A stretch of DNA of 40,895 bases from Bacillota bacterium. Lineage in GTDB: Bacteria; Bacillota; Dethiobacteria; DTU022; UBA8154. The position numbers and the translations under genes were made by a program. The notes beneath the pieces were generated by a model. It was not told where the DNA came from, did not search any database, and saw nothing but the letters and a program-made list of their open reading frames with translations. The stretch covers positions 1 through 40,895 of the forward strand of contig DUQX01000103.1 in assembly GCA_012837615.1 (NCBI GenBank), given 5' to 3'. Positions within the stretch are counted from its first letter, which is position 1. Each line of letters begins with the position of its first letter. Positions 4,700-33,975 of the stretch are shown piece by piece.

Positions 4700-6113
4700 A
4701 GCGGTACCTTTTATAAAGACCGGCGGCTTGGCTGATGTTATCGGAACTTTACCCCTGGAGCTGAGGAAACTGGGTATTGATGCCCGCCTTGTGCTGCCAA
4801 AATATGGTGATATAGATACTACATTTCAGGATAAAATGGTTCTTAAAAACACGCTGTCCATCAAGTTAGGAGGAAAATATCATCAGGGCGCCCTTTTAAA
4901 AATGGAATGTGACGGGGTTCCCTGCTACTTTATTGAACATGATTACTTCTTTAACCGGAAAGGAATATACGGATTTGAAGACGACGCCGCGCGCTTCGCT
5001 TTCTTTTCCAGTTTTGTTTTAGAGATCCTTCCCCGCCTGGATTTCCGTCCGCAAATCCTGCACTGCCATGATTGGCATACAGGGATGGTCAGCTTTTTAC
5101 TAAAAACCCGGTATAGCGAAAGGATGTATTATAAAAGAATACGCACACTTTTTACGATCCACAATCTCGGTTATAAGGGCCTGTTCCCCAGAAAAACAAT
5201 AGAGGATTTATTTGAAATAGAACCGCAGCAATATTTCACAATAAACAGCATTGAATTTTTTGGACAGGGAAGTTACCTCAAGGGAGGATTGGTTTTTTCT
5301 GATTATATAACAACTGTCAGTAAGACCTATGCCCGGGAGATCCAAACCCCGTTCTATGGTGAAGGGCTTGATGATATCCTCAGAAAGCGGAGTAATCATC
5401 TACAGGGAATCCTGAACGGCCTGGATTACCAGCACTACAACCCCCTTTCTGACCCGAGTATATTCGTTCCTTTCAGGTATTCCTTTGAAAAGAAACTGGA
5501 AAACAAGCTGAAACTGCAGGAAATTTTGAGGCTTCCACAGGACAGGGAAATTCCGTTGATCGCTTTTATAAACAGGCTTGTAAAACAAAAAGGACTGGAT
5601 CTAATCAACCAAGCCAGAGATGAGTTGCTCGGCATGAATACCCAGCTAATTTTTTTGGGTAAGGGTGAAGAAAAATACGAGGTTTTTTTGCAACAGCTAG
5701 CAGATAGTTATCCCGACAGGGTCTCCGCGAATATTATTTTTGATGATACGCTGGCGCGCAAAATATACGCCGCCTCCGATATGTTTCTAATGCCATCCCT
5801 TTATGAACCCTGTGGCATCAGCCAGTTAATCGCCATGAGCTACGGAAGTGCACCAATTGTAAGAGAAACAGGCGGCCTTAAAGATACCGTAAAAGAGTTT
5901 AACAAATTTAGCAAAGAAGGCAATGGTTTCAGTTTTAAAAATTACGACGCCTTTGAAATGCTCTCCACTATAAAAAGAGCCGTAAAACTTTACAGGGATA
6001 AACATATCTGGAGCAAGCTAATGAAAAATGCTGTGGAAACAGATTACAGCTGGAAAAAACCGGCAAAGGATTATTTGGAGCTGTACAGGCGCATGCTCAA
6101 TGCTACCTGTTAG
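4674..6113 (+). CDS. glgA: Glycogen synthase (ADP-glucose, GT5)
   Basis: Transfers glucose from ADP-glucose to the growing alpha-1,4-glucan. It starts MKVLFIASEA and carries the ADP-glucose lysine motif KTGGL (15-19), HCHDWHT, the C-terminal NRLVKQKGLDL segment and the E-x7-E region EPCGISQL. At 479 residues it has family length. An in-frame ATG 6 bases earlier (4668) leaves only 2 bases to the GGAGG at 4661-4665, whereas the ATG at 4674 leaves 8, so the latter is chosen. Its start lies inside the end of glgC, giving translational coupling. No branching enzyme or phosphorylase gene is in the window. Confidence 0.95.
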   Translation: MKVLFIASEAVPFIKTGGLADVIGTLPLELRKLGIDARLVLPKYGDIDTTFQDKMVLKNTLSIKLGGKYHQGALLKMECDGVPCYFIEHDYFFNRKGIYGFEDDAARFAFFSSFVLEILPRLDFRPQILHCHDWHTGMVSFLLKTRYSERMYYKRIRTLFTIHNLGYKGLFPRKTIEDLFEIEPQQYFTINSIEFFGQGSYLKGGLVFSDYITTVSKTYAREIQTPFYGEGLDDILRKRSNHLQGILNGLDYQHYNPLSDPSIFVPFRYSFEKKLENKLKLQEILRLPQDREIPLIAFINRLVKQKGLDLINQARDELLGMNTQLIFLGKGEEKYEVFLQQLADSYPDRVSANIIFDDTLARKIYAASDMFLMPSLYEPCGISQLIAMSYGSAPIVRETGGLKDTVKEFNKFSKEGNGFSFKNYDAFEMLSTIKRAVKLYRDKHIWSKLMKNAVETDYSWKKPAKDYLELYRRMLNATC

Positions 6114-6132
6114 CCGGGACCTGCTGACCGCC

Positions 6133-6172
6133 GGCTGCCCGCCTGCTAGCGGGCGGCTGCAGTTTATAATTT
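6133..6172 (+). terminator. Probable terminator after glgCA
   Basis: A 10-bp GC-rich stem (GGCTGCCCGC 6133-6142 with GCGGGCGGCT 6149-6158, including G-T pairs) closes a 6-base loop and is followed by GCAGTTTATAATTTT. It lies 20 bases after the glgA stop codon. The T-rich tail is imperfect. Confidence 0.6.
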
Positions 6173-6257
6173 TGAACGGAAAACGAAAATGACCGGGAAA
6201 CTCTTTTACGAGGCAGGACAGAAACCCTGAATAGCGATGAAAGCTACCTACGGGTAC

Positions 6258-6456
6258 TTAAAAGCTTTATAACTGCTCAGAGCAAACACAAACAGGCCAT
6301 AGGGAACGGCAGCTGTCATGTGTGCGAAAAGTCACAGCACCTGTCACTCTGAACGTAGTGAAGAGTCAGGATCCTTCGCTAGCGCTCAGGATGACAACCT
6401 GATAGCCTGATAGCCTGATAACCTTGCGCATAGCTGAGCAGTTACAAAGCTTTTAA
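6258..6456. mobile_element. MITE-like repeat, copy 1 (best preserved)
   Basis: A 199-bp non-coding element is bounded by 23-bp terminal inverted repeats (6258-6280 and 6434-6456) with one mismatch; the core of each end is TAACTGCTCAG. Inside are oppositely oriented modules of the GTCACTCTGA / CAGGATGACA type around GGATCCTTCGCT, and three tandem copies of CCTGATAG near 6400-6420. Related copies occur at 19962-20146 (reverse orientation) and 24638-24830, with a solo end at 14710-14770. There is no ORF, so it would depend on a transposase in trans. It sits between the convergent glgA and GT4 genes. Confidence 0.75.
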
Positions 6457-6516
6457 TAAAGTGTACGAGAGAAGACACGGGTTCCGGGTTGCAGTTGAAA
6501 CATTGAACAACCAGGC

Positions 6517-14595: not shown

Positions 14596-14709
14596 GGGAA
14601 AACATATTACCATGAAATTTTTGAAGTTTATTCAATCTATTTAAAACAGATAATACTTTTGACAATACTTTTAGAAGCGTGGTTTAACTTCAGCAGATTT
14701 TTTAAAAAA

Positions 14710-14770
14710 GTAACTGCTCAGCTATGCACAGGATTGTCATCCTGAGCGTTAGCGAAAGATCCTTTACAGT
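14710..14770. mobile_element. MITE-like repeat, solo end (copy 2)
   Basis: Begins GTAACTGCTCAGCTATG and continues through GTCATCCTGAGCGTTAGCG and GATCC, matching about 60 bases of one end of the copy at 19962-20146. The second end is missing, so this is a decayed or partial copy. It lies just downstream of codY. Confidence 0.65.
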
Positions 14771-19961: not shown

Positions 19962-20146
19962 TGTAACTGCTCAGCTATGTGCAGGATTGTCACCCTGAGC
20001 GTTAGCAAAGGGTCCTTTTTCTGAGCGTTAGCGAAGGATCTTGGCTCTTCTCTGCTTTCAGAGTGACAAGTCATTTTTCATACTGTGGTTTTTTTCACAC
20101 CTGCCGTCTCTATGCCCTGTTTATGTTCTGCTCTGAGTGGTTGCCA
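19962..20146. mobile_element. MITE-like repeat, copy 3 (reverse orientation)
   Basis: Starts TGTAACTGCTCAGCTATG and ends CTCTGAGTGGTTGCC, a degenerate copy of the opposite terminal repeat. When reverse-complemented it aligns along its length with copies 1 and 4 (CATAGAGACGGCAGGTGT, GTCACTCTGA, GATCCTTCGCTAACGCTCAG, GGTGACAATCC). It ends 45 bases before yedE and so forms part of that gene's upstream region. Confidence 0.7.
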
Positions 20147-21771: not shown

Positions 21772-24172
21772 CAGCACCGTGAAGATCGGTCCTGTATAGA
21801 TGCACATTATTTTCCTGCAGAATGCTGAGAACATCCGGATGCGGGTGGCCAAAAGAATTGGCCCCAACAGAGATAACAACCGTATGAGGGGAAACGCGAT
21901 TGATAAGCTCTTGAAGATTGTCAAAGTAGCCGCCATGGTGCGGTGCCTTTAAAAGCCAGCATTCCGGCAACAACCCTTCTTTTAAAAGGTAATCCACCGC
22001 TTCAGCTTCAATATCCCCCGTAAAAAGAGCACCTGCTTCCCTGTAACGAAGATGCAAAACCAGCGAATTATTATTGGTATCGCTGGTTGTCCCGGCGAAA
22101 AGCTCTGCTGGAGGGCAAAGAACATCTATATAAATATCATCCCCCAACCGGAATGTGTCTCCTTTTTTGACAATTTCCCGGGATATGTTTTTTGATTCTG
22201 CCAGGGCTAACAACTCCCTGTAGGCAAGCGCTTCTGTTAAATCTGCATTTGTTACCAGCATTTCTACCGGAAATTTATCCAAAACGGCCAGCAGCCCCCC
22301 GTAATGATCCTCATGTGGGTGGCTGATGATGACCAGATCCAGCCTTTTAATCCTCCGGTGCTCCAGAAAAGGTACCACGACATAACGTCCCGGTGCATCA
22401 ATATTTCCTTTAAATGCCGAATTTCCCCCGCCATCAATAAGAATATTCTGGCCCAAGGGGGTATGTATAAAAATTGCATCCCCTTGCCCCACATCCAAGA
22501 AAACAATTTCCAGCTTCCCCGGAAATGCTCCGGGAAAGCTGCACCATATAAAAAAAAGCGCCAGGAGCAGCAACGAAGCCAATAAATGAAAAGGGCGGGC
22601 ATGCTGCCTGATCCGTGACCATAATGGAAGCAATAGTTTCCATCCGCCACCTAACAGCAACAGCAAAATATAATATAATATCATTTCAAAAATCCGGGGG
22701 GGATATACTTCCCGGTATGCAAAAGGCAGGGAACCAATTTCCCTGGCAATTAGCGTAACGTAAGCCAGAAGAGGAAAATTGGCCAGATTAAAAATTGAAC
22801 CCGCCAGCGGATACAACAAGCCCAGCAGCGAGGCAGCAAGACCCAGGCTCAACACAGCTGACATTACAGGTAAAATGAGCATATTGGAAAAAAGGGCCAT
22901 TAGGGATATTTCCCTAAAATAAAATGCGGTAAGGGGAATAACACCCAGCTGCGCGGCCAGAGTAACGGCTGCCAGAGAGGAAATGCTTTTTATCCTCGCC
23001 GGAGATATAAAAGCTACTGTTCTGCTAAACAATAAGGATATTTTCTCTGTTAAGATGGGGGTAAAGATAATGATAGATAACGTTGCCGCATAAGATAGCT
23101 GAAAACCAACGGTAAACAGAAAAAGAGGGTTGCAAACCAGAACAACCAGCGCGGCCGCAGCCAGGGCGGTCAGGAGATCATTGCTCCGCCCTAGCTGAAC
23201 AGCCCCCATAGCCATAAGGATCATAATAAAAGCTCTCAGCGTGGCTGGCTTACAACCGCAGATATAAATATAGGCAAAAAGAAACAGCGCTGAAAATAAA
23301 AAGGCCTGCCATCCTCTAAACCCGGCTCTTTTTGTAGCGTAAATAATAAATGCCGCTATCAACCCTACATGCAAACCTGATACAGCCAGTAAATGCGAAA
23401 GGCCCGAAGCCCTGAAAATACGTTCTATATCCGGGTCCAGCGCTCTTCGCTCGCTGAAAAGCATTCCCACCAGCAGACTACCTTCCTTTTGTGGCAGGTA
23501 AGCCTTCAGGATCTCCGACATCCTGTTCTTAAGAAGAAGAGCTGCACGGCGGGGGACGGAAAGTTCCGGAGAAAGGCCCAGCGGGACAAGGTCTTTCGCC
23601 GATGCATAAAAACTCACCGCTATCCCTTTGGCCTCCAGAAAGGCCCGGTGATTGAAACCGCCGGGATTGCGTCTTTCTTTCGGCTCATAAAGAACGCCCT
23701 GCAAAGATATTTTTTGGCCATACACCAGAGAGGTAAAAAGTTTCTCTTCATAGTCTTCTTTTTTACCGCCGGCAGCATTTAGCTGTACAGTCACCTGAGC
23801 CCTGCCGCTTACAGGGTGCTCCTCTCCATGGCAGATTATCTGCTGTGAACGAAGAGGGAAAACGACTTCATCCCCCCGCCACAAAGGCTCGTCCTCCACC
23901 ATACCCACCAGGACACACTTTTTCCCGTCAAAATCACGGATACTACCCCTGGCCCCCTCCAGCGCATAATGATACCTGATCCCTCCGGCAACCAAAAAAA
24001 CGAGTAAAAGGGGGATAAAAGCTTGCACCCCATTATTCTTATTAAGGATTTGCCATAAAGCCCAAAGAAAAGCGGCAGCCGCTGGAAGAATAAAAATATA
24101 AGTCGTAAAAAAACGTCCCAGGGTAATTCCCGCGACGTACGCCAGGGTCAAGAAAACAAGTGGACGGACCAT
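21641..24172 (-). CDS. comEC: ComEC/Rec2 DNA uptake channel protein
   Basis: Inner-membrane channel for single-stranded DNA in natural transformation, 843 residues. The N-terminal DUF4131 region is followed by the Competence domain with LLVGMLFSERRALDPDIERIFRASGLSHLLAVSGLHVGLI (motifs typical of ComEC) and many membrane segments. From about 560 on is a metallo-beta-lactamase domain with FLDVGQGDAIFIHTP, the metal motif SHPHEDHYGG, LFTGDIEAE and LKAPHHGG. The last 35 residues or so after KTDGYN are unusual and are encoded by the antisense of the DUF3343-like gene. RBS AAGGAG lies 8 bases before the ATG. No comEA is adjacent. Confidence 0.93.
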   Translation of the reverse strand: MVRPLVFLTLAYVAGITLGRFFTTYIFILPAAAAFLWALWQILNKNNGVQAFIPLLLVFLVAGGIRYHYALEGARGSIRDFDGKKCVLVGMVEDEPLWRGDEVVFPLRSQQIICHGEEHPVSGRAQVTVQLNAAGGKKEDYEEKLFTSLVYGQKISLQGVLYEPKERRNPGGFNHRAFLEAKGIAVSFYASAKDLVPLGLSPELSVPRRAALLLKNRMSEILKAYLPQKEGSLLVGMLFSERRALDPDIERIFRASGLSHLLAVSGLHVGLIAAFIIYATKRAGFRGWQAFLFSALFLFAYIYICGCKPATLRAFIMILMAMGAVQLGRSNDLLTALAAAALVVLVCNPLFLFTVGFQLSYAATLSIIIFTPILTEKISLLFSRTVAFISPARIKSISSLAAVTLAAQLGVIPLTAFYFREISLMALFSNMLILPVMSAVLSLGLAASLLGLLYPLAGSIFNLANFPLLAYVTLIAREIGSLPFAYREVYPPRIFEMILYYILLLLLGGGWKLLLPLWSRIRQHARPFHLLASLLLLALFFIWCSFPGAFPGKLEIVFLDVGQGDAIFIHTPLGQNILIDGGGNSAFKGNIDAPGRYVVVPFLEHRRIKRLDLVIISHPHEDHYGGLLAVLDKFPVEMLVTNADLTEALAYRELLALAESKNISREIVKKGDTFRLGDDIYIDVLCPPAELFAGTTSDTNNNSLVLHLRYREAGALFTGDIEAEAVDYLLKEGLLPECWLLKAPHHGGYFDNLQELINRVSPHTVVISVGANSFGHPHPDVLSILQENNVHLYRTDLHGAVTIKTDGYNFERHTVLLPSLYRTSQYLPLSFYIRVFPEAGLSP

Positions 24173-24525
24173 TAAAAAACTCCTTCACCCTGCAATTACA
24201 ATAGTCGAATATAATCATCCATATTAAGACCTGCATCATTTATATCATCTTGTTCAATAATTACAGGGCAACTTTTTATATCAAACACTTTTGAATTTTA
24301 TTATATTCCATTATACTCCATTTTTTGCTATCTTTACAATGGCGCTTTTTTTTAAAAAATTTCTCAAGATAAACATGCTCATAATTAGTAGAGGCAAAAA
24401 GTATAGGGGAAAGTTTTAATATAAGTTATAATTGCATGAAGGGATATTATTGTTTGATGTCAAATTAAACTAACATACGTTATGAATTAATATGCTTAAC
24501 ACTAATACTTAACACTAATATAAGA
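24173..24525. other. AT-rich spacer upstream of comEC
   Basis: About 350 bases without any credible gene. Very AT-rich, with repeated short words (ATACTTAACACTAATA near 24504-24521). It must hold the comEC promoter on the minus strand, but no clear match was fixed. Confidence 0.4.
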
Positions 24526-24592
24526 AACAACCCTTGAGCGGTTGTTGTAAATTATTTTGCATACTAAGCAAAATACCCTGATGATCTCAGGG
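24526..24592 (+). ncRNA. Three tandem hairpins, possible structured RNA
   Basis: Three perfect stem-loops follow one another: AACAACC/GGTTGTT (24526-24546, loop 7), ATTTTGC/GCAAAAT (24554-24574, loop 7) and CCCTGA/TCAGGG (24576-24592, loop 5). They end 13 bases before the left REP motif at 24606. No known riboswitch class was recognised. This may be the 5' end of a small RNA or the leftover flank of a REP-associated transposon. Confidence 0.35.
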
Positions 24593-24605
24593 AGGTGAAA
24601 AGAGA

Positions 24606-24904
24606 GGGTCAGGCTTGCATTATTGCATTATTTTATTGTAACTGCACAGAACAAACACAAAAAGTACATAGGGAACGGCAGGTGTCAGGTGTGCAAAAGT
24701 CACAGTACCTGTCACTCTGAACGTAGTGAAGAGTCAGGATCCTTCGCTCCTCTCAGGACAAGGATCCTTCGCTAACGCTCAGGATGACAATCTGACAACC
24801 TGCAATCTAGCGCATAGCTGAGCAGTTACATTTCATTAAAGCTTGGTACTGTTGGTATTGTTGGTGTGGTTAGGTTAGATGTGCAATAATGCAAGCCCGA
24901 CCCC
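24606..24904. repeat. Inverted pair of REP-like motifs enclosing a MITE
   Basis: A 22-bp motif, GGGTCAGGCTTGC followed by ATTATTGCA (24606-24627), is repeated in inverted orientation at 24882-24903 with one mismatch. Such head-to-head GTCAGGCTTGC motifs resemble the REP or terminal sequences handled by Y1 tyrosine (IS200/REP-associated) transposases. The interior is almost entirely the MITE copy 4, so the original distance between the arms was about 60 bases. No transposase gene is present. Confidence 0.65.
24638..24830. mobile_element. MITE-like repeat, copy 4 (nested)
   Basis: Left end TGTAACTGCACAG and right end CTGAGCAGTTACA; the interior matches copy 1 nearly throughout (AGGGAACGGCAGGTGTCAGG, GTCACTCTGAACGTAGTGAA, GGATCCTTCGCT, CAGGATGACAA) and has a short internal duplication of the GGATCCTTCGCT module. 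It lies within the REP-like inverted pair. Non-coding. Confidence 0.75.
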
Positions 24905-25026
24905 ACGCATTAGCAAAGGAGGTGGGAATAGAAAAAAATGCTTTAATTCGCTCCTAACCGTTAATAAACAAAAGAAGGCAGTTTTTTTGTTTTTCTAAAC
25001 CAACGCAAAGGGGGAAACTTGTTATC

Positions 25027-25629
25027 ATGAAAAAAACGAAAAAATTTTTGATCATCACTTTAATCCTCATTCTTACCTTGTTTATTTTCGGCTGTGCCCA
25101 GTCCGAAGTGAACAATGGAGAAAATGGAGAGGTTAATGCAGAAAATGAACAAAACGGAACAGGTAAAGCCGCAGAGGAACCCTCTGCTGAAGGAGAAGAA
25201 GGCAACAATGAAGGCGCGGAAAGCATTTCGGCAGAGATCGGGGAGTGGAGCATTACGATCGAGGTAATGGGAGAAGAAACACTGGAATTCTCCAATTTTG
25301 ACGCCGAAGAACTTGGTCCAAAAGAGATAGCGGCAACAGTGAAAGATAAAGAAGATATCGGTGAAGAACAGATCTGGACAGGAATTTTATTGGAAGATCT
25401 TTTAGAATTTGCCGGCGTAGATAATTTTTCCGTTATTTCCGTAATTTCTGCGGATGGGTCTACGCGTGAGTTTGACCCGGCAAGAATTAGCGAAGGCGCT
25501 ACAGGAATTGGCTGGATGGTAAACGGCGAGCCGTTGGATGCAGAGAGCGGCCCGGTACAGTTTATCGCCGATCAAAGAGGGCCGAAATGGTGGGTTAAGC
25601 AGGTGACAAAAATCGAGATCATTAAATAA
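25027..25629 (+). CDS. Lipoprotein with oxidoreductase molybdopterin-binding-like (SUOX fold) domain
   Basis: A 200-residue exported lipoprotein: MKKTKK, a hydrophobic segment, and C23 in FIFGC. A low-complexity Glu/Asn/Gly linker runs to about residue 70. The remaining 130 residues look like the small sulfite-oxidase-type molybdopterin-binding domain, with IWTGILLEDLLEFAGVD, SADGSTREF and the C-terminal GPKWWVKQVTKIEIIK, but no clear cofactor cysteine, so it is more likely a binding or scaffold domain than an enzyme. GGGGGAAAC precedes the ATG. It heads the FecCD-type operon, so it may help to capture or present the transported ligand. Confidence 0.75.
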   Translation: MKKTKKFLIITLILILTLFIFGCAQSEVNNGENGEVNAENEQNGTGKAAEEPSAEGEEGNNEGAESISAEIGEWSITIEVMGEETLEFSNFDAEELGPKEIAATVKDKEDIGEEQIWTGILLEDLLEFAGVDNFSVISVISADGSTREFDPARISEGATGIGWMVNGEPLDAESGPVQFIADQRGPKWWVKQVTKIEIIK

Positions 25630-25644
25630 CTATTGCTAACAACG

Positions 25645-26652
25645 ATGAAAAAAAAGATATTTTTAGCAATTCTTATCCTCACACCGCTTTTAACAATCTT
25701 TATATCGCTTTTCATCGGTAGGTACCCGCTGACTGTCGGGGAGGTGCTCACTGTTCTCGGCTACAAGTTTGGCTTTGTGGAAGCGGATCTTCCCTTAAAT
25801 AATATTAATGTAGTCTGGAACATTCGCCTACCCAGGGCTATTTTAGGAGCAATCGTTGGGGGCAGCCTGGCAGTCAGCGGAGCATCTTATCAGGGTTTAT
25901 TTAGAAACCCCCTCGTCAGTTCCGATATCCTGGGAGTATGTGCTGGAGCAGGCTTCGGCGCCTCCCTGGCAATTATTTTATTCCAGAGCCAACCGTTTTT
26001 TGTTTACCTGTTTGCCTTTGGCTTCGGCATCGGCGCGGTTGTCTTAAGTTACCTAATCGGTTTTCACTATCATACAACGCCAACGATCATGCTCGTTTTA
26101 GGAGGCGTCATCGTTAAAGCTATTTTTTCTTCTCTTATCTCCCTGTTAAAGTACATAGCTGATCCGTATGAGCATCTACCGAGTATTGTTTTTTGGCTAA
26201 TGGGCAGCCTGGCCACCGCCAGGTACGAAGATCTGTTACTTGCTGCCCTGCCGATGACAATAGGTATGATCGGCCTGATAGCAATGCGCTGGCGCTTAAA
26301 CATCCTCTCCATGGGAGATAAAGAGGCACAGGCTTTGGGGATAAATATTTTTTTTACAAAAAGCCTGGCAATCTTCTTTGCAACCCTATCTACTGCCGCG
26401 GCTGTCTGTGTAAGCGGGGTAATCGGGTGGGTAGGCCTTGTTATACCCCATATCGGCAGGATGCTCGTCGGTAATAACAATATAGTATTAATCCCGGTGA
26501 GCATTTCAATCGGAGCATCGTACCTGGTTCTTGTTGATAATCTAGCCAGAACGCTTACAGGCTCAGAAATCCCGCTGGGAATTCTGACATCTTTAATCGG
26601 GGCACCTTTCTTTATCTATCTGCTAAAGAAAACAAAAGGGAGAGGCTGGTAG
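25645..26652 (+). CDS. FecCD-family ABC transporter permease (second system)
   Basis: Membrane subunit of an importer for a metal-chelate, corrinoid or oxyanion (some FecCD-like permeases, such as MolB, take up molybdate). Signature stretches RLPRAILGAIVGGSLAVSGA, YQGLFRNPLVSSDILGVCAG, GVIGWVGLVIPHIGR and IPLGILTSLIGAPFFIYLLK are present, with about ten membrane segments, 335 residues. The ATG at 25645 is chosen over a TTG at 25633; neither has a good RBS, so it is probably translated by coupling to the lipoprotein gene that ends 15 bases upstream. Confidence 0.92.
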   Translation: MKKKIFLAILILTPLLTIFISLFIGRYPLTVGEVLTVLGYKFGFVEADLPLNNINVVWNIRLPRAILGAIVGGSLAVSGASYQGLFRNPLVSSDILGVCAGAGFGASLAIILFQSQPFFVYLFAFGFGIGAVVLSYLIGFHYHTTPTIMLVLGGVIVKAIFSSLISLLKYIADPYEHLPSIVFWLMGSLATARYEDLLLAALPMTIGMIGLIAMRWRLNILSMGDKEAQALGINIFFTKSLAIFFATLSTAAAVCVSGVIGWVGLVIPHIGRMLVGNNNIVLIPVSISIGASYLVLVDNLARTLTGSEIPLGILTSLIGAPFFIYLLKKTKGRGW

Positions 26653-26656
26653 TTTC

Positions 26657-27454
26657 TTGATCGAAATTCAAAACGCTTCTTTTGCCTATGGAAAAGAACA
26701 AGTGTTTAATAATATTAATTTGGAAATAAAAAAGGGAGAAATATTTTGCCTTTTTGGGCCCAACGGCTGCGGTAAATCAACTTTGATTCAGTGCATGCTG
26801 GGGATTTTAAAATTAACCAAAGGCATGATAATGCTAGAAGGAAAAAATGTTGCTCAACTGCGCCCCTTTGAAATCGCCAGAAAGCTGTCTTATATTCCCC
26901 AGTCGCACGAAAAGCCCTTCCCCTTTAAAGTTATGGATATCGTCTTAATGGGCAGGGCTTCCTATACAGGAATTTTTTCGCTCCCCGATGCCGAGGACGA
27001 GGCAATAGCTTTGGATGCTTTGGAACAGGTGGGGATGCACAGGTTTAAGGATAAGCCTTATACCCAGCTTAGCGGCGGGGAAACGCAGTTGGTCCTGGTT
27101 GCCAGGGCACTGGCACAAAAGACGCCTGTTCTGGTGATGGATGAACCCACGTCTCACCTCGATTTTCGTAACGAGCTGCGCTTTTTAGAAACAGTTGCCC
27201 AGCTGGTTAAAACTGCCGGGTTGACGGTGGTAATGGCAACCCATTTTCCCAACCACGCCTTTTACTTTGAGAATAACCAGGTCAGAACAAAAATCGCGCT
27301 GATGAATAATAAAAAAATTGTTGCCCAAGGATTTCCTCGAGAAGTGCTCACCGAGATACATATGTCCAATACGTTTAACATAACGAGCAAAGTGGTCTCT
27401 TATCAATGGGAAAAAGGGCATTTGAGATATATAGTGCCCCTAAAGACATATTAG
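26657..27454 (+). CDS. FecE-type ABC transporter ATPase (second system)
   Basis: A 265-residue ATPase with Walker A GPNGCGKS (34-41), signature LSGGE (138-142), Walker B VLVMDEP (158-164) and D-loop SHLD. Start codon is TTG at 26657, 4 bases after the permease stop, with AGAGG upstream; no other start fits the family N-terminus IEIQNASFAYG. Unlike the ATPase at 787-2088 it has no extra C-terminal domain. Confidence 0.93.
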   Translation: MIEIQNASFAYGKEQVFNNINLEIKKGEIFCLFGPNGCGKSTLIQCMLGILKLTKGMIMLEGKNVAQLRPFEIARKLSYIPQSHEKPFPFKVMDIVLMGRASYTGIFSLPDAEDEAIALDALEQVGMHRFKDKPYTQLSGGETQLVLVARALAQKTPVLVMDEPTSHLDFRNELRFLETVAQLVKTAGLTVVMATHFPNHAFYFENNQVRTKIALMNNKKIVAQGFPREVLTEIHMSNTFNITSKVVSYQWEKGHLRYIVPLKTY

Positions 27455-27485
27455 CTTAGCCTTACATTTTGGGGGAGGGAATCGA

Positions 27486-28592
27486 GTGTATAAGAAAAAG
27501 ATTATTGCCTTTTTAGCCATTTTACTTGTTTTTTTAATTTTAGGTTGCGGCCTGGCAGGTTGCAGTTCAGGTTGTACAGATCAAACGCCTTCTGCTTCGC
27601 TGGAAACAGAGCAGGCTATGATTACTGTTGTAGATAGTTTCGGGCGGAAAGTATCCGTTCCCAAAGAAGTAACCCGGATCGCGGCCCTCTATTCTTTTGC
27701 CGGTTATACGGTGAGCCTGCTGGGGCGGGGAAGCGACTTAATTGCTGTCCCTGGCGGTCTGCAGCGGGATCTGCTGCTAATGGAAATATTCCCGGAAATA
27801 GCCGATGCTGCCGTCCCCAGGGTTTCCGGAAAAATCAATATTGAAGAGTTGATGAGAGTAAGCCCCGATCTCGTTATTATCAGGGGGGATACGGCTGCCG
27901 ATAAAAAGGAGCTGGAAAAACTTGGTAATAGCGGGATTCCTTATATAATTGTCGAATACTCGACTATTGAAGAACAGCAGGAAGCGGTTTCGATCATTGG
28001 CAAGGCGATCGGCAGAACAGCAGAAGCTGAAAAATATAACGCGTATTACAACAAAATTCTACAGATGGTCGATGAAGCTGTCTCCGCGATCCCGCCGGAG
28101 GAAAGAACCAGGGTCTATCATTCTGAAAACCAGCCTACCAGAACGATTCATAGGGACTCTATTGCAGCGGATTGGTCCAAGGCGGCAGGGATAATCAACG
28201 TCTCAATCAATGCGGAGTTAGAACTTATTGGCAACGATTACTACTGCAGCCTGGAACAGGTTCTGATGTGGGATCCGGAGGTGATTATCGCCAATGAAAA
28301 TTCGGCGCTCGCTTATATCAAAGGTAATCCCCAGTGGTCGGGGATAAAAGCGGTACAAAACAACAGGGTTTACCAGCTTCCTTTGGGGATTTCACGCTGG
28401 GGGCATCCCGGTTCTGTGGAAATTCCCCTGGCTGTATTATGGACAGCAAAGACGGTTTATCCGGAAATACTGACCACTGTAAATATGGCAGAAGAAGTTG
28501 ATAATTTTTACCGCACTTTCTTCAATTTCGAGCTCAGCGATGAGCAAATTGAAAAGATATTAAAGGGGGAAGGTTTACGTGAACCAAAATAA
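27486..28592 (+). CDS. Periplasmic-binding lipoprotein of the FecCD-type transporter
   Basis: Substrate-capture protein of the cluster B (helical-backbone) type, 368 residues, anchored as lipoprotein through C26 in LAGC. The fold markers are VTRIAALYSFAGYTVSLLG, NIEELMRVSPDLVIIRGD, YCSLEQVLMWDPEVIIANENSA and the C-terminal W-rich stretch SRWGHPGSVEIPLAVLWTAKTVYPE. The GTG start at 27486 has GGGGGAGGG upstream. The ligand is not predictable from sequence alone; iron or other metal chelates, corrinoids and molybdate or tungstate are all known for such systems. Confidence 0.92.
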   Translation: MYKKKIIAFLAILLVFLILGCGLAGCSSGCTDQTPSASLETEQAMITVVDSFGRKVSVPKEVTRIAALYSFAGYTVSLLGRGSDLIAVPGGLQRDLLLMEIFPEIADAAVPRVSGKINIEELMRVSPDLVIIRGDTAADKKELEKLGNSGIPYIIVEYSTIEEQQEAVSIIGKAIGRTAEAEKYNAYYNKILQMVDEAVSAIPPEERTRVYHSENQPTRTIHRDSIAADWSKAAGIINVSINAELELIGNDYYCSLEQVLMWDPEVIIANENSALAYIKGNPQWSGIKAVQNNRVYQLPLGISRWGHPGSVEIPLAVLWTAKTVYPEILTTVNMAEEVDNFYRTFFNFELSDEQIEKILKGEGLREPK

Positions 28593-28606
28593 AGGAGGCT
28601 TCCCGT

Positions 28607-29359
28607 GTGAAGGTATTAATCTGCATAGATGATACGGATAATAAACAAAGTAGAGGAACAGGCGATCTGGCGCTCAAGTTTGCTACAGCAATTATAGAAA
28701 ATCGTTGGGGGACAACAACACCAATAACCAGGCATCAGCTTTTTGTACACGAGGATATCCCCTATACTTCGCATAACTCAGCCATGTGTTTCTCTGCTGA
28801 AATATTTCCGGGTTGTTTAAAATGGGTAATTGCTTTTGGCCAACAATTTTTAGAAAACGAATCTGCCGAGGGTTCTGACCCCGGCCTTTGTGTCGTTTCG
28901 CTCGACGAACTCAAATTCCCCGAAGAGCTAGTCCGATTTGGCCAAAAGGCAAAAACATCCGTATTAACAAAGAATAACGCGTATATAACTGCATCCAAAC
29001 TGGGAGTTCATCTTTCCGAGCACGGAGGGACAGGTGACGGCATAATAGGTGCTCTCGCTGGTGCCGGGCTTCGCCTAAGCGGCAATGACGGGCGGTTAAA
29101 GGGAAAGTACTACCTCGACAGCGACAACGGGATTATCAAAGTGAAAGAAATCTGTGCCCAATCGAATATTGACGAGGTCTGGACGGAGAACGGTGAAAAG
29201 CTTGATGAAAATGAAAGTGTGATGCTCGGTGAAAAAGTTAAGAGCGTCCTCCTGGCAGGAAAAATTGTTTTGCCGGTAGAGCCTTTGAGCAATCCTGAAA
29301 ATAAACAAGGAAAAGCAAAGTGGATTACTCTGTCCAGAGACAAAATCAGAAAATATTAA
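28607..29359 (+). CDS. TiaS-like protein (tRNA-Ile2 agmatinylcytidine synthetase-related)
   Basis: A 250-residue protein beginning MKVLICIDDTDNKQSRGTGD, which contains the IDDTD motif (7-12) that marks the archaeal TiaS kinase-like domain, and the second conserved block EHGGTGDGIIGALAGAGLRL (139-158). It is much shorter than archaeal TiaS (about 420 residues) and lacks the C-terminal OB-fold and zinc ribbon, so tRNA modification is unlikely. Bacteria normally use TilS for that job. Its GTG start lies 15 bases after the binding-protein stop, with GGAGG, so it belongs to the uptake operon. It may be an ATP-using enzyme acting on the imported ligand; this is inference. Confidence 0.7.
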   Translation: MKVLICIDDTDNKQSRGTGDLALKFATAIIENRWGTTTPITRHQLFVHEDIPYTSHNSAMCFSAEIFPGCLKWVIAFGQQFLENESAEGSDPGLCVVSLDELKFPEELVRFGQKAKTSVLTKNNAYITASKLGVHLSEHGGTGDGIIGALAGAGLRLSGNDGRLKGKYYLDSDNGIIKVKEICAQSNIDEVWTENGEKLDENESVMLGEKVKSVLLAGKIVLPVEPLSNPENKQGKAKWITLSRDKIRKY

Positions 29360-29426: not shown

Positions 29427-29466
29427 AAGGAGCAGGAAAACCGCTCACGCGGCTTTCCTGCTCCTT
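29427..29466 (+). terminator. Strong hairpin ending the uptake operon
   Basis: A stem of about 17 bp (AAGGAGCAGGAAAACCGC 29427-29444 with its complement 29449-29466, one mismatch) closes the tetraloop TCAC, followed by CGTTATAT. It lies about 70 bases after the TiaS-like gene and can also stop transcripts from the opposite direction. Confidence 0.75.
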
Positions 29467-29610: not shown

Positions 29611-32600
29611 TCAAGCCTGACCTTTTCGTTTGTTCTGGCTCCGCTGTTTGGCCTGGAAGACCAGGCTTTCAATAAATTCTTCGCGGTTGGTATTGTCTTT
29701 GCCGTCATAGTAGATGGAGATCATCGGCAGGTTTAAATCCCTGCGCATCGCTCCCATCTGTGCCTCCACTACGGAACCGGGCATGCAGGTAAACGGTGCA
29801 ACAAAAATAGCCCCGGATACCCCGTTATGCCCGGCGAGGGCGCAGGCCCTGCCGATAGTCATCGGAGGTTCCCCCCCGTAATGCTTGGAGACATATTTTT
29901 GGGCATGGTTCCTGATTTCCTCCGGTGAAGGTTCTTCCAGACCGCCCAGATATTCACCGACTATCGATTCCAGCCGTTTCTCATCCCTGAGAGCCAGCCG
30001 GTTTACAAAACTATAACCGGTCTTCATGAGGAAATTAATGAGGCTTTTCTTCGTCTTGAAGGCTGCACAGGCCTCCTGGTAATTAATAAACACAGTATAG
30101 GTAAAAAGCTCCGAAGCCGGCGCCAGCGAAACTTCACCGCCCTCGCGCTCAATTTTCCTGATAATTTCCCGGTTGCACCGATCGTCCAAGCGGACATAAA
30201 ACTCCCCATTAACAATAATCAGGGGCCTTTTCCCACCAGAACGGGGCACTTGGGAAAACTCATCCACCGCCTCGCGCAGCAGTTCTTCCAGGGGGCGTAA
30301 GTGCTTTGCGCTCAACAAATGTGTAATGTTAACCCGCAAGCCCTCCAGTATCCGGCAGAGCTTCCTGGAATACTTTTCAAAGAGAGCATCGCTGGTTCCT
30401 TCCTCCAGCTCGTACGGCCTGGTGGCATGCAGTATTTTGTAAAGCGCATCCATGGCTACCATTCCATCGTAAACCCCCAGGATAAAACCTAGGCCAAATC
30501 TCTTAATTGCATCCTCTGCTCTAACAGAACAGATCCTGCTTTCACCAAAACCCGCCCTGTTAATGAGCAGGGATTGAGTAGGAGCGTAAAGACCGTAGCG
30601 GCAGGGGCCGCAGGCCCATCCCTGGAAAAACACCGTTTTATCCAGGTCGATGTTCTTCCCGTTAGAAAAAAGGTAATCCAAAAAATCCTGAACGTTCTGT
30701 ATCAGGGGAAGACACTCGTCCCCGTTTACAAACCGCCGCGCTAAAACCAGATCCTTATCTTTACTGCGGGGCAAGAGCTCTGCATCCACACCATAATTCT
30801 TAAACATGGCCTCAAAAACCCTGGCGTGATGAGTGGGTTCAGGAATAAGGATCTTTTCCCAATCCCGATCGGAAACCTTTTGTGTACGGGCGGAGTAAAA
30901 AAGAGACTTAACTGGTTCCTTTTGTGAACGGCAGGTATTTTTAAAAGCCTCCAGCCTGGTAATCATACCTGCTGGTGCAGTATGTTCATCCAGCGTTAAT
31001 CTCAGGTAACCGGTGAGGTTTCCCAAGTAATGGCGAAGCATGGCATTGGGACCGCATTTGAATGGATCCTGAAGAACTAAATGCAGAAGGGGAAGCCCTG
31101 TTTTTTCCGTCCTTTCGTTTAAGAAATTAACAAAGAAAACTGTGGATAGCATCTTCTGCAGCTGAATAGGATAAATATTATCGATGTGTGTAAGCAGTTC
31201 GGCAAGATACTTGTCGAACTCAATCCTTTCACTATCCAGCGCAGGATCTTTTATTTTACCCTCATACCAACCCCGCAGATATTCAAGGATAAACTCCTGA
31301 GGGACAGCCAGCAAGCCCCTCTGCAGGGCATAGTGCAGTGATCCCTTGGAAACAAAATCATCGTAAATGGTATAAGACCTGCCCAGGAAAATAGCCGTTA
31401 CCAGGCCTTTACTACCCTTTATCCTTTCCATAACCCGCCGGCTTTCCTCTAACATGGAGAGCTGATACAACTCCTGCGCCCGGTATCCAGAATCAAGAGC
31501 ATTTTCAAAGTCTTTCGGGCGGTACTTTTCCCCCATAATTTTTCTGGCAACCGGTTCCAGCTGGGATTTAATCATCTGCCTTCCTTCACGATAATTTAAC
31601 TGGGCATAGAGTATTTTCTCGTTATCTACCTGCAACGAATTGGCAACAGTCCCCCTTACGGTCTGTATAAGAGGGCAGGAAAAGGCGCGGGGCCAGTTTT
31701 CTGCCCAGGGAAGAGGCTCCATTGTCACAACCTCGGGGACAAAAATATAATCCAGCTCCATTTCGGTGAGCTCCTGATAATGCCCGATCAATACCTCCAT
31801 CGGATAACATATCTCGGTTTCAAGCTTTCTTTTCCCTTTTTCCAAGGTGTCTTCTGAGGTTAAGGAGGAGAGAACAACGCAAGCTCCCAGTTCCTTGAAG
31901 AAAGCGGCCCAGAAAGGATAAAGGTCAAAAAACAGCCCGCTGCGGGCAATGCCCACCCGGGGCCCCCCTTCTTTCAAAGGCTCACCGGCAGACTGATAAA
32001 AAATATCATTTCTGAGGGCAACATAATCCGGCAAATCATTTTCCTTTGATTTTTTCTCCAACCCTGAGTAACGGCCGCAGCGGTCGCCATAAATAAAGCT
32101 ACTGCCATCCAAAAATTTGATTACATCCAGTGTGCAGTTGTGTTCAAATTCGCATACCGCTTTACATTTGCGTTTTTCAACCGTGAAAGTATTTAATTTT
32201 TGCAGGCTGCGGAATGAGTACTGCGCCTCCTGCCCCGACTCATGGAACATCTTAGCTATCAGGGCGCTTCCCAGCGCGCCGGTAAGCTCCGGATAAGGAG
32301 GAACGGTTATGTCGCTGTCGCATTCGGCCGCAAATGCACTGGCCAGGGCATGGTTCTTCGCCGTTGCTCCGGTAAAAATAATTTTCCCCTCGAGGGGCCT
32401 ATTTTCCGCTGTTTTATTGATATAATTGCGAGCCGAGGAATAAGCCAGACTGGCCAACTGGGATGAAAGGGGCAGCCCGCGGGAAGCCGCGGTAGCAAGG
32501 CTGGTCTGGGAAAGGAGCGTACAGGTATCACCAAGATCTATGGCATACTCCGCTTCAAAAGACCTCCTGGAAAACTCTTCTTTAATTTTCACTCCTAGAA

Positions 32601-33975
32601 GTCCGGCAAGGTTTTCCAAAAAAGTACCGGTACCGGCAGCACAGACGGGATTCATATTATAATCATAAAGAACACCATTTTTTAGCTGCAGGAACTTGGA
32701 ATCTTCCCCGCCGATCTCTATGATGGAAAAAGTCCCCTCTTCACCGCAGAAGTACTTTACCCCTTCGGCCTGGCAGGTTATCTCGTCCACAGCATACTCC
32801 GCGTTCAAGATCTTCTGGGAAAGAAATCTCCCGGATCCCGTAGTACAGGCTTTAATCGGCGCTTCTTTTATCAAATCCCCATATTTTAGCTTAACTTCTT
32901 TCATTAATTCCAAAACCTGTAGCGCCGGGCGCCCGGCGGTAGGGAGATATATTCCTCCAATGAACTTTCCCCTGTTATCCAGAAGGACACACTTGGTTGA
33001 TACCGAGCCGCAATCAACTCCTAAGTATACATTGGAGAGGTCAAAGGATTTCTGTTCGGGAGGCAACTCCATATAATGGACCCGCTCGCCGTTAAGGGGA
33101 GGCAGCGGGTTTTCAGGAACATAGCTCCGGCTTAAAAGCCCTTCAATGTTGAAATCCTTTACCCGCAACCGGGCCTGTCCTTTTGCCGCTCCCAGGGCAT
33201 TAATATATTCATGGCCATCCGGAACTATCACATCGACAGAACGCTCTGCACAGTATTCCCTGATGTATTTCATCACCGCATCATTATTGGCAAATCCCCC
33301 GACGGCAATTAAAGTTCCCGGGCCTTTAATCCTGTTCTGTGCCACTCCGCTGAGTACCATATCCGCCAGTGCTCTGGCCATTCCGGCCGATACGGCTGCC
33401 TGAGTGGCGCCCTCATTTATCGCATGAGTCATATCCGATTTGGCAAAAACTGCACAGCGCCCGGAAATTTTCACCGCCGAATCCGTGCTGAGCGCTATCT
33501 TCGCCAGTTCACGGTCGTTATAACCCATTCTTGTAGCCTGCTGGTACCAGAAAGCACCACTTCCGGCGGCACACTGGCCGTTGCGGTTGAAAAAATGGAC
33601 AACTCCACCCGCCCCAAGCTCCAGGTAATACATGTTTTCATGGCCCAAGGATAAAACGGCGTAATTATCCAACTCCGGGAAATCGAGCCCCCCCTGCAGG
33701 GCTTCTATCTCCAGCAGAGGTTTGATACCGGCCTCTCTGGCCAGGAGATAGGCGTTGGTACCCGTTAACCCACAGGAAACCAGCTCTTCCTCCCTGCCTT
33801 CCAAAAGATAATGAAGGCATTTCCGGGATGCCTCCACAGGGTTACCTGCTGTTGGTATTGTAACCTTTTTTACCTGGTCTCCTTCAACCAGCACTCCTTT
33901 GACAGCAAAAGTGCCTAGATCTAGGCCCAGCCCGGGCAATTTATTATTCTTTTCTTGAACATTATCTCCAACCAC
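29611..33975 (-). CDS. Double acyl-CoA dehydratase activase (BadF/HgdC-type) with DUF2229 and C-terminal domains
   Basis: A 1454-residue protein of the CoA-substrate-specific enzyme activase group. Domain 1 (about 16-270) is an ASKHA ATPase, GLDLGTFAVKG, with cluster cysteines C135 (QCAAGSGAF) and C174 (RCAVFAKSDM), spaced 39 as in HgdC. Domain 2 (about 317-600) repeats it: GVDCGSVSTKC, VCAAGTGTFLEN and DTCTLLSQ. Then a DUF2229 region (GIARSGLFFDLYPFWAAFF) and a dehydratase-like C-terminal half (FFQGWACGPCRYG, APFTCMPGSVVEAQMG) follow. By analogy it hydrolyses ATP to drive low-potential electron transfer; its partner is not known. GTG start with GAGGTG. The last codons KGQA and TGA are a REP-like motif. 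Confidence 0.88.
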   Translation of the reverse strand: MVGDNVQEKNNKLPGLGLDLGTFAVKGVLVEGDQVKKVTIPTAGNPVEASRKCLHYLLEGREEELVSCGLTGTNAYLLAREAGIKPLLEIEALQGGLDFPELDNYAVLSLGHENMYYLELGAGGVVHFFNRNGQCAAGSGAFWYQQATRMGYNDRELAKIALSTDSAVKISGRCAVFAKSDMTHAINEGATQAAVSAGMARALADMVLSGVAQNRIKGPGTLIAVGGFANNDAVMKYIREYCAERSVDVIVPDGHEYINALGAAKGQARLRVKDFNIEGLLSRSYVPENPLPPLNGERVHYMELPPEQKSFDLSNVYLGVDCGSVSTKCVLLDNRGKFIGGIYLPTAGRPALQVLELMKEVKLKYGDLIKEAPIKACTTGSGRFLSQKILNAEYAVDEITCQAEGVKYFCGEEGTFSIIEIGGEDSKFLQLKNGVLYDYNMNPVCAAGTGTFLENLAGLLGVKIKEEFSRRSFEAEYAIDLGDTCTLLSQTSLATAASRGLPLSSQLASLAYSSARNYINKTAENRPLEGKIIFTGATAKNHALASAFAAECDSDITVPPYPELTGALGSALIAKMFHESGQEAQYSFRSLQKLNTFTVEKRKCKAVCEFEHNCTLDVIKFLDGSSFIYGDRCGRYSGLEKKSKENDLPDYVALRNDIFYQSAGEPLKEGGPRVGIARSGLFFDLYPFWAAFFKELGACVVLSSLTSEDTLEKGKRKLETEICYPMEVLIGHYQELTEMELDYIFVPEVVTMEPLPWAENWPRAFSCPLIQTVRGTVANSLQVDNEKILYAQLNYREGRQMIKSQLEPVARKIMGEKYRPKDFENALDSGYRAQELYQLSMLEESRRVMERIKGSKGLVTAIFLGRSYTIYDDFVSKGSLHYALQRGLLAVPQEFILEYLRGWYEGKIKDPALDSERIEFDKYLAELLTHIDNIYPIQLQKMLSTVFFVNFLNERTEKTGLPLLHLVLQDPFKCGPNAMLRHYLGNLTGYLRLTLDEHTAPAGMITRLEAFKNTCRSQKEPVKSLFYSARTQKVSDRDWEKILIPEPTHHARVFEAMFKNYGVDAELLPRSKDKDLVLARRFVNGDECLPLIQNVQDFLDYLFSNGKNIDLDKTVFFQGWACGPCRYGLYAPTQSLLINRAGFGESRICSVRAEDAIKRFGLGFILGVYDGMVAMDALYKILHATRPYELEEGTSDALFEKYSRKLCRILEGLRVNITHLLSAKHLRPLEELLREAVDEFSQVPRSGGKRPLIIVNGEFYVRLDDRCNREIIRKIEREGGEVSLAPASELFTYTVFINYQEACAAFKTKKSLINFLMKTGYSFVNRLALRDEKRLESIVGEYLGGLEEPSPEEIRNHAQKYVSKHYGGEPPMTIGRACALAGHNGVSGAIFVAPFTCMPGSVVEAQMGAMRRDLNLPMISIYYDGKDNTNREEFIESLVFQAKQRSQNKRKGQA

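Follow-up and report, generated by a model that had tools for sequence, protein, structure and literature searches.

What is a relative of an archaeal tRNA-modifying enzyme doing at the end of a bacterial uptake operon? The question is raised by a 40,895-nucleotide stretch of DNA from a Bacillota bacterium (contig DUQX01000103.1 of assembly GCA_012837615.1; the whole stretch is called the window here), in which positions 25027-29359 hold five genes, for a SUOX-fold lipoprotein, a FecCD-type importer with its binding protein and a protein resembling TiaS. On balance, this operon appears to be one variant of a system for uptake and processing that is linked to the supply of the tungsten/molybdenum (W/Mo) cofactor. 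As far as could be checked, such a W/Mo-linked system is real, conserved and widespread, and apparently undescribed. Direct support comes from gene content and order, the folds of the proteins, riboswitches in related operons and co-occurrence with the aldehyde:ferredoxin oxidoreductase (AOR) family and with Mo/W genes. Three further elements are our inference: a complexed ligand, the presence of the pterin in it and the reaction carried out by the TiaS-like enzyme.

A FecCD importer operon that ends in a TiaS-like gene

The five open reading frames (ORFs) lie in the same direction on the + strand, are separated by 3-31 bases and have visible ribosome-binding sites, such as AAAGGAGG ahead of the GTG start at 28607; the gene 3′ of the operon is on the opposite strand. 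The first ORF (25027-25629) encodes the 200-residue SUOX-fold (Oxidored_molyb) lipoprotein (Pfam PF00174, 4.5e-7). It is followed by a BtuC-like FecCD permease (25633-26652; PF01032, 8.5e-84), which is conserved as a neighbor and likely begins at the ATG at 25645, by the ATP-binding cassette (ABC) ATPase of the importer (26657-27454; ABC_tran, PF00005, 4.2e-30), by a substrate-binding lipoprotein (27486-28592; Peripla_BP_2, PF01497, 2.5e-20) and by the 250-residue TiaS-like enzyme (28607-29359), recognized from the TiaS profile, an AlphaFold2 model and motifs. ORFs and Pfam families thus agree with the original prediction, which had described five tightly spaced genes combining a SUOX-fold lipoprotein, a FecCD importer and a TiaS-like protein. 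A permease, an ATPase and a Peripla_BP_2 protein in one operon constitute a FecCD (type II) ABC importer, and because there is only one permease gene, the permease presumably works as a homodimer. The arrangement is not due to chance, since the same gene order recurs across unrelated families.

TiaS is the archaeal tRNA(Ile2) 2-agmatinylcytidine synthetase, and to our knowledge its catalytic fold was previously known only from that tRNA-modifying enzyme. The last protein of the operon matches no Pfam family. Its match to the TiaS profile covers residues 1-154 of 422 (7e-8, 31.4 bits), far below the curated equivalog cut-off of 600 bits. The best-scoring curated family is methanogenesis marker 11 (TIGR03280), of unknown function, with 5e-10 and 39 bits over about 150 residues (positions 134-282 of 292), which fails the curated cut-off of 255.8 bits; the match lacks the first 130 profile positions, and the host is a bacterium rather than a methanogen. 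The AlphaFold2 model of the protein is confident (pLDDT 92.8), and its PDB matches by Foldseek are TiaS, with a probability of 1.00 and E values of 1e-9 to 6.5e-6 over approximately 158 residues. The original prediction, in naming TiaS, was therefore right about the catalytic fold of 28607-29359 and missed the closest curated family.

The protein consists of the TiaS catalytic module, which is N-terminal in TiaS, and a small beta-rich domain of about 90 residues. Whereas TiaS has about 420 residues, its relative here has about 250 and aligns only to TiaS residues 1-158, without an OB-fold or zinc ribbon, so that the RNA-binding domains are missing, as had been proposed. Conserved motifs of the family are IDDTD, RHQ, YTSHNS, SDPG and E-GG-G-G-IGALAG-GLR. 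The elements IDDTD, N, (N/D)PG and G-G-IGALA(G) are common to TiaS, whereas RHQ, YTSHNS and SEHGG are particular to the TiaS-like family. This mixture of shared and family-specific motifs suggests the same nucleotide chemistry directed at a different acceptor.

The gene is patchily distributed, occurring in 19 of the 299 genomes of the phylum sample; within the order it is found in 7 of 71, and it does not occur in the one other surveyed genome of the same genus. TilS, the enzyme that bacteria had been said to use in place of TiaS, scores above its cut-off in all 19, which, together with the shortness of the protein, argues for rejecting tRNA modification. The notion that the TiaS-like enzyme stands in for a missing MoaE also fails: MoaE is present in 7 of these 19 genomes and in only 2 of the 40 AOR-positive genomes that lack the TiaS-like gene. 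MoaE, the large subunit of molybdopterin synthase, accordingly went undetected in 38 of those 40 and in 12 of the 19, and despite its frequent absence MoaC is present in 17 of the 19.

Tandem TiaS-like paralogues occur at three loci (L037, 9648-11370; L038, 9562-11064; L112). The IDDTD and YTSHNS motifs have degenerated in the second copy at L037 and L038 and in a relative at L043, which suggests an altered function for these proteins. In addition, a small protein that ends in CYNCRYRRW...C and has no Pfam family is encoded 3′ of the TiaS-like gene at L077 (8760-9002) and some 14 other loci, and is fused to the TiaS-like C terminus at L040 (9463-10338).

Association with tungsten and molybdenum

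A scan of named genomes yielded 80 loci with a TiaS-like gene, from Bacillota, Desulfuromonadia/Geobacter, other Desulfobacterota and one Chloroflexi bin. An importer lies beside the gene in 60 of them, being of the FecCD type in 39 and of the energy-coupling factor (ECF) type in 23, with both in 2; placement relative to FecCD genes is thus not random. The usual Gram-positive order is an immunoglobulin (Ig)-like (Big_5) surface protein, FecCD permease, ATPase, binding protein and TiaS-like enzyme. The SUOX-fold lipoprotein replaces the Ig-like protein as first gene in the window, L040, L047 and L076, and in most loci the Ig-like protein occupies this position while the importer and TiaS-like enzyme are retained. 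In Gram-negatives, the cluster extends to genes for a TonB-dependent receptor, at 15 loci, and for TonB, at 10. In Pelobacter carbinolicus, channels of the TonB type have been noted close to riboswitches for cobalamin and molybdopterin, and metals are their possible cargo (Aklujkar 2012, PMC3543383).

Among Rfam families, the Moco/Tuco riboswitch (RF01055) is located immediately 5′ of many related operons, and a riboswitch model of our own, built from 20 Rfam hits, gave 82 matches in 100 loci. Of the 62 evaluable named loci, 36 have a same-strand RF01055 upstream, and in 16 loci the riboswitch is at most 500 bp from the TiaS-like start. In 18 genomes of the random phylum survey, 9 had a same-strand riboswitch in the 7.5 kb upstream, compared with 0.28 expected (P ~2e-13). 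All 20 aligned riboswitches lack stem P3. The P3-lacking Moco riboswitch has been linked to the tungsten cofactor, and two such RNAs in S. wolfei precede unexplained ‘sulphite oxidase’ genes (Regulski 2008, PMC2408646), which are possibly SUOX lipoproteins of the kind found in the window. The related operons thus share a P3-lacking RNA with the described Moco/Tuco regulon, the literature on which was found to contain no account of a TiaS-like/FecCD/ECF/TonB unit.

Neighboring genes point in the same direction. Recurrent among them are TupABC (15 loci), a molybdenum-storage homologue (16 loci; 6e-74 to a solved protein), MoeA (6 loci) and MobB (4 loci), and at L099 the genes that come after the operon are mogA, moeA, moeA, moaA and moaC. 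AOR, a family of tungsten enzymes, is represented in all 19 surveyed genomes with the TiaS-like gene and in 157 of the 280 others (P 2.8e-5). The proposal that the operon takes up and modifies a metal complex or cofactor is therefore well supported, both by the non-random FecCD placement and by the predicted TiaS fold; what had escaped it was the W/Mo link seen in riboswitches and neighbors, along with the ECF and TonB variants.

At L076, the TiaS-like gene is separated from an ECF importer with MobB by a gene (4949-6466) for a lipoprotein with a phosphodiesterase/nucleotide pyrophosphatase domain. This single case would fit extracellular cleavage of a dinucleotide cofactor.

A possible uptake route and its alternatives

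In the proposed system, a surface receptor would capture complexed W/Mo, in the form of the W/Mo-pterin cofactor, its breakdown product or a W/Mo chelate. The receptor would be the SUOX-fold, pterin-binding-like lipoprotein in the window, Ig-like or S-layer proteins in other Gram-positives and the TonB-dependent receptor in Gram-negatives. The binding lipoprotein would hand the ligand to the FecCD importer, or to the ECF importer of other lineages, after which the cytoplasmic, ATP-dependent TiaS-like enzyme would convert the ligand into a form that cofactor assembly can use; in the simplest case it would be a kinase or nucleotidyl transferase. A similar arrangement is found in Isd-type heme acquisition, which combines a surface protein, a binding lipoprotein, a FecCD importer and a cytoplasmic processing enzyme; ligand, enzyme and regulation differ, so this is a resemblance only.

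The ligand is probably a complex and not a free oxyanion. A ligand larger than tungstate is indicated by the TonB-dependent receptors of Gram-negative loci, by the two unrelated importer classes that serve the same TiaS-like enzyme and by the strong TupA homologues in 15 of the 19 surveyed genomes. More tentatively, the operon may encode an importer and salvage pathway for the W/Mo-pterin cofactor or its breakdown products, in which the TiaS-like protein would be the salvage kinase or nucleotidyl transferase. The W/Mo cofactor is thought to be made anew by each cell that uses it, since it is unstable when free, and we know of no bacterial uptake system described for it. How pterins cross membranes is unknown (2026 pterin review). 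In the open-access literature searched, no description of the TiaS-like/importer unit was found, nor anything relevant to methanogenesis marker 11 or to cofactor import. If the proposal is correct, dedicated, riboswitch-linked uptake of cofactor or complexed tungsten would revise thinking on how a scarce metal is obtained in anaerobic communities (Geobacter, Syntrophomonas, Sporomusa and relatives); a large unnamed enzyme family would gain a testable function, and methanogenesis marker 11 a lead.

Several observations weigh against supply by uptake of a cofactor or complex. MoaC is kept in all 16 good-quality genomes with the TiaS-like gene, so that cofactor auxotrophy is unsupported as a reason for import. 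Twenty-six evaluable loci have no upstream riboswitch, and neither Rfam at E 10 nor our own unfiltered model detects a Moco/Tuco riboswitch in the 850-bp leader of the window operon (scanned over 24100-25200). A likeness of the TiaS-like enzyme to the pterin kinase HPPK was rejected, as the small Foldseek matches are no better than those to many unrelated ferredoxin-like folds. By sequence, the SUOX lipoprotein does not match the pterin-binding protein PruR significantly (E 0.39), leaving a likeness of fold only, and the PruR pocket is reported to be too small for the full cofactor (2026 pterin review). The binding lipoprotein, whose PDB relatives are 4ovk (4e-31), 4pag (1e-20) and HI_1472 MolA (3psa/3psh, 3e-18), has MolA as its closest characterized relative by sequence; molybdate and tungstate are both ligands of MolA, whose MolBC-A system (HI_1470-1472) is itself an importer of the FecCD type (PMC4031551).

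This last relationship is the starting point for the most serious alternative, rather doubtful in our view, in which the importer takes up free tungstate or molybdate like MolBC-A while the TiaS-like enzyme has a separate role in assembling the cofactor in the cytoplasm, such as activation of the metal or the pterin. Loci of the Syntrophomonas type and L105, where the TiaS-like gene adjoins tupA/TupABC without a FecCD or ECF gene, are consistent with such a division of labor. However, a free oxyanion passes porins and has no need of TonB-dependent receptors, most of the surveyed genomes with the TiaS-like gene already have a strong TupA homologue, and the surface SUOX, Ig-like and S-layer homology proteins would be left unexplained. 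MolA, moreover, is a low-affinity system for high molybdate, whereas the switch of the operons considered here is expected to act at cofactor shortage. Neither a surface receptor nor a TiaS-like enzyme figures in the description of MolBC-A, and the operons considered here differ from it by Tuco-type riboswitch control in relatives and, in Gram-negative versions, by a TonB receptor.

The SUOX lipoprotein invites a different explanation, in which it would serve as a pterin sensor in an operon devoted mainly to pterin signaling, as in PruR-DcpA. The first match of its AlphaFold2 model is PruR, followed by sulfite oxidases (probability 1.00). Its single cysteine is the lipobox residue C23, which leaves none to ligate Mo, and PruR, also an exported protein, likewise has no Mo-ligating cysteine (2026 pterin review). 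The PruR pterin-contact residues are N/D102, Y104 and W160; the motif DGY and a C-terminal W occur in relatives of the SUOX lipoprotein, and DGS and WW in the window protein, with no significant PruR alignment by which contact residues could be placed. Signaling is nonetheless improbable as the main function: PruR is periplasmic and signals with DcpA, whereas the SUOX lipoprotein belongs to an importer operon, there is no DcpA-type signaling gene within the five-gene operon (no partner test was made), and most loci keep importer and TiaS-like enzyme but have Ig-like proteins in place of SUOX. It is more improbable still that the operon encodes an ordinary siderophore, heme or corrinoid importer adjoined by an unrelated tRNA-modifying gene. 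Permease and ATPase profiles do score best on corrinoid/iron families (the top NCBIfam match of the ATPase is a corrinoid ABC ATPase) and the TonB receptors on B12/siderophore families, in each case below cut-offs. Riboswitch and neighboring genes, however, indicate W/Mo, the Rfam hits in the scanned loci include no cobalamin riboswitch, and the TilS count and missing TiaS domains oppose tRNA modification.

The leader of the window operon and adjacent features

In the leader position where relatives have the riboswitch, the window contains an element resembling a miniature inverted-repeat transposable element (MITE; 24606-24903), recognized from 22-nucleotide terminal inverted repeats and from its genome copies, which amount to 51 matching pieces, many of about 200 bp. 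Because this multicopy element sits in the leader, it is possible that the riboswitch was lost by rearrangement. The closest relative of the operon (L047/L133) has the same five genes, a TiaS-like protein that is 60-61% identical and a riboswitch directly before the SUOX gene, and the riboswitch is likewise directly 5′ of the SUOX gene at L040. The sole Moco/Tuco riboswitch found in the window’s own genome, which lacks P3 and is cut by a contig end, is on contig C145 (L138/L139, 1-4130). It precedes a second FecCD operon, with a methyltransferase, a binding protein (27% identical) and a FecCD permease (40% identical). Since the riboswitch is found in relatives and in this other operon and not in the window leader, the W/Mo link of the window operon itself rests on homology.

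Other MITE-like pieces of the window are at 6267-6391, 14701-14764 and 19962-20135. Downstream of the five genes, a strong inverted repeat read from the sequence by eye, AAGGAGCAGGAAA...TTTCCTGCTCCTT (29427-29466, + strand), is the probable operon terminator. Beyond it, and convergent with the operon, 29611-33975 encodes a 1454-residue protein with BadF/BcrA-type activase domains and DUF2229.

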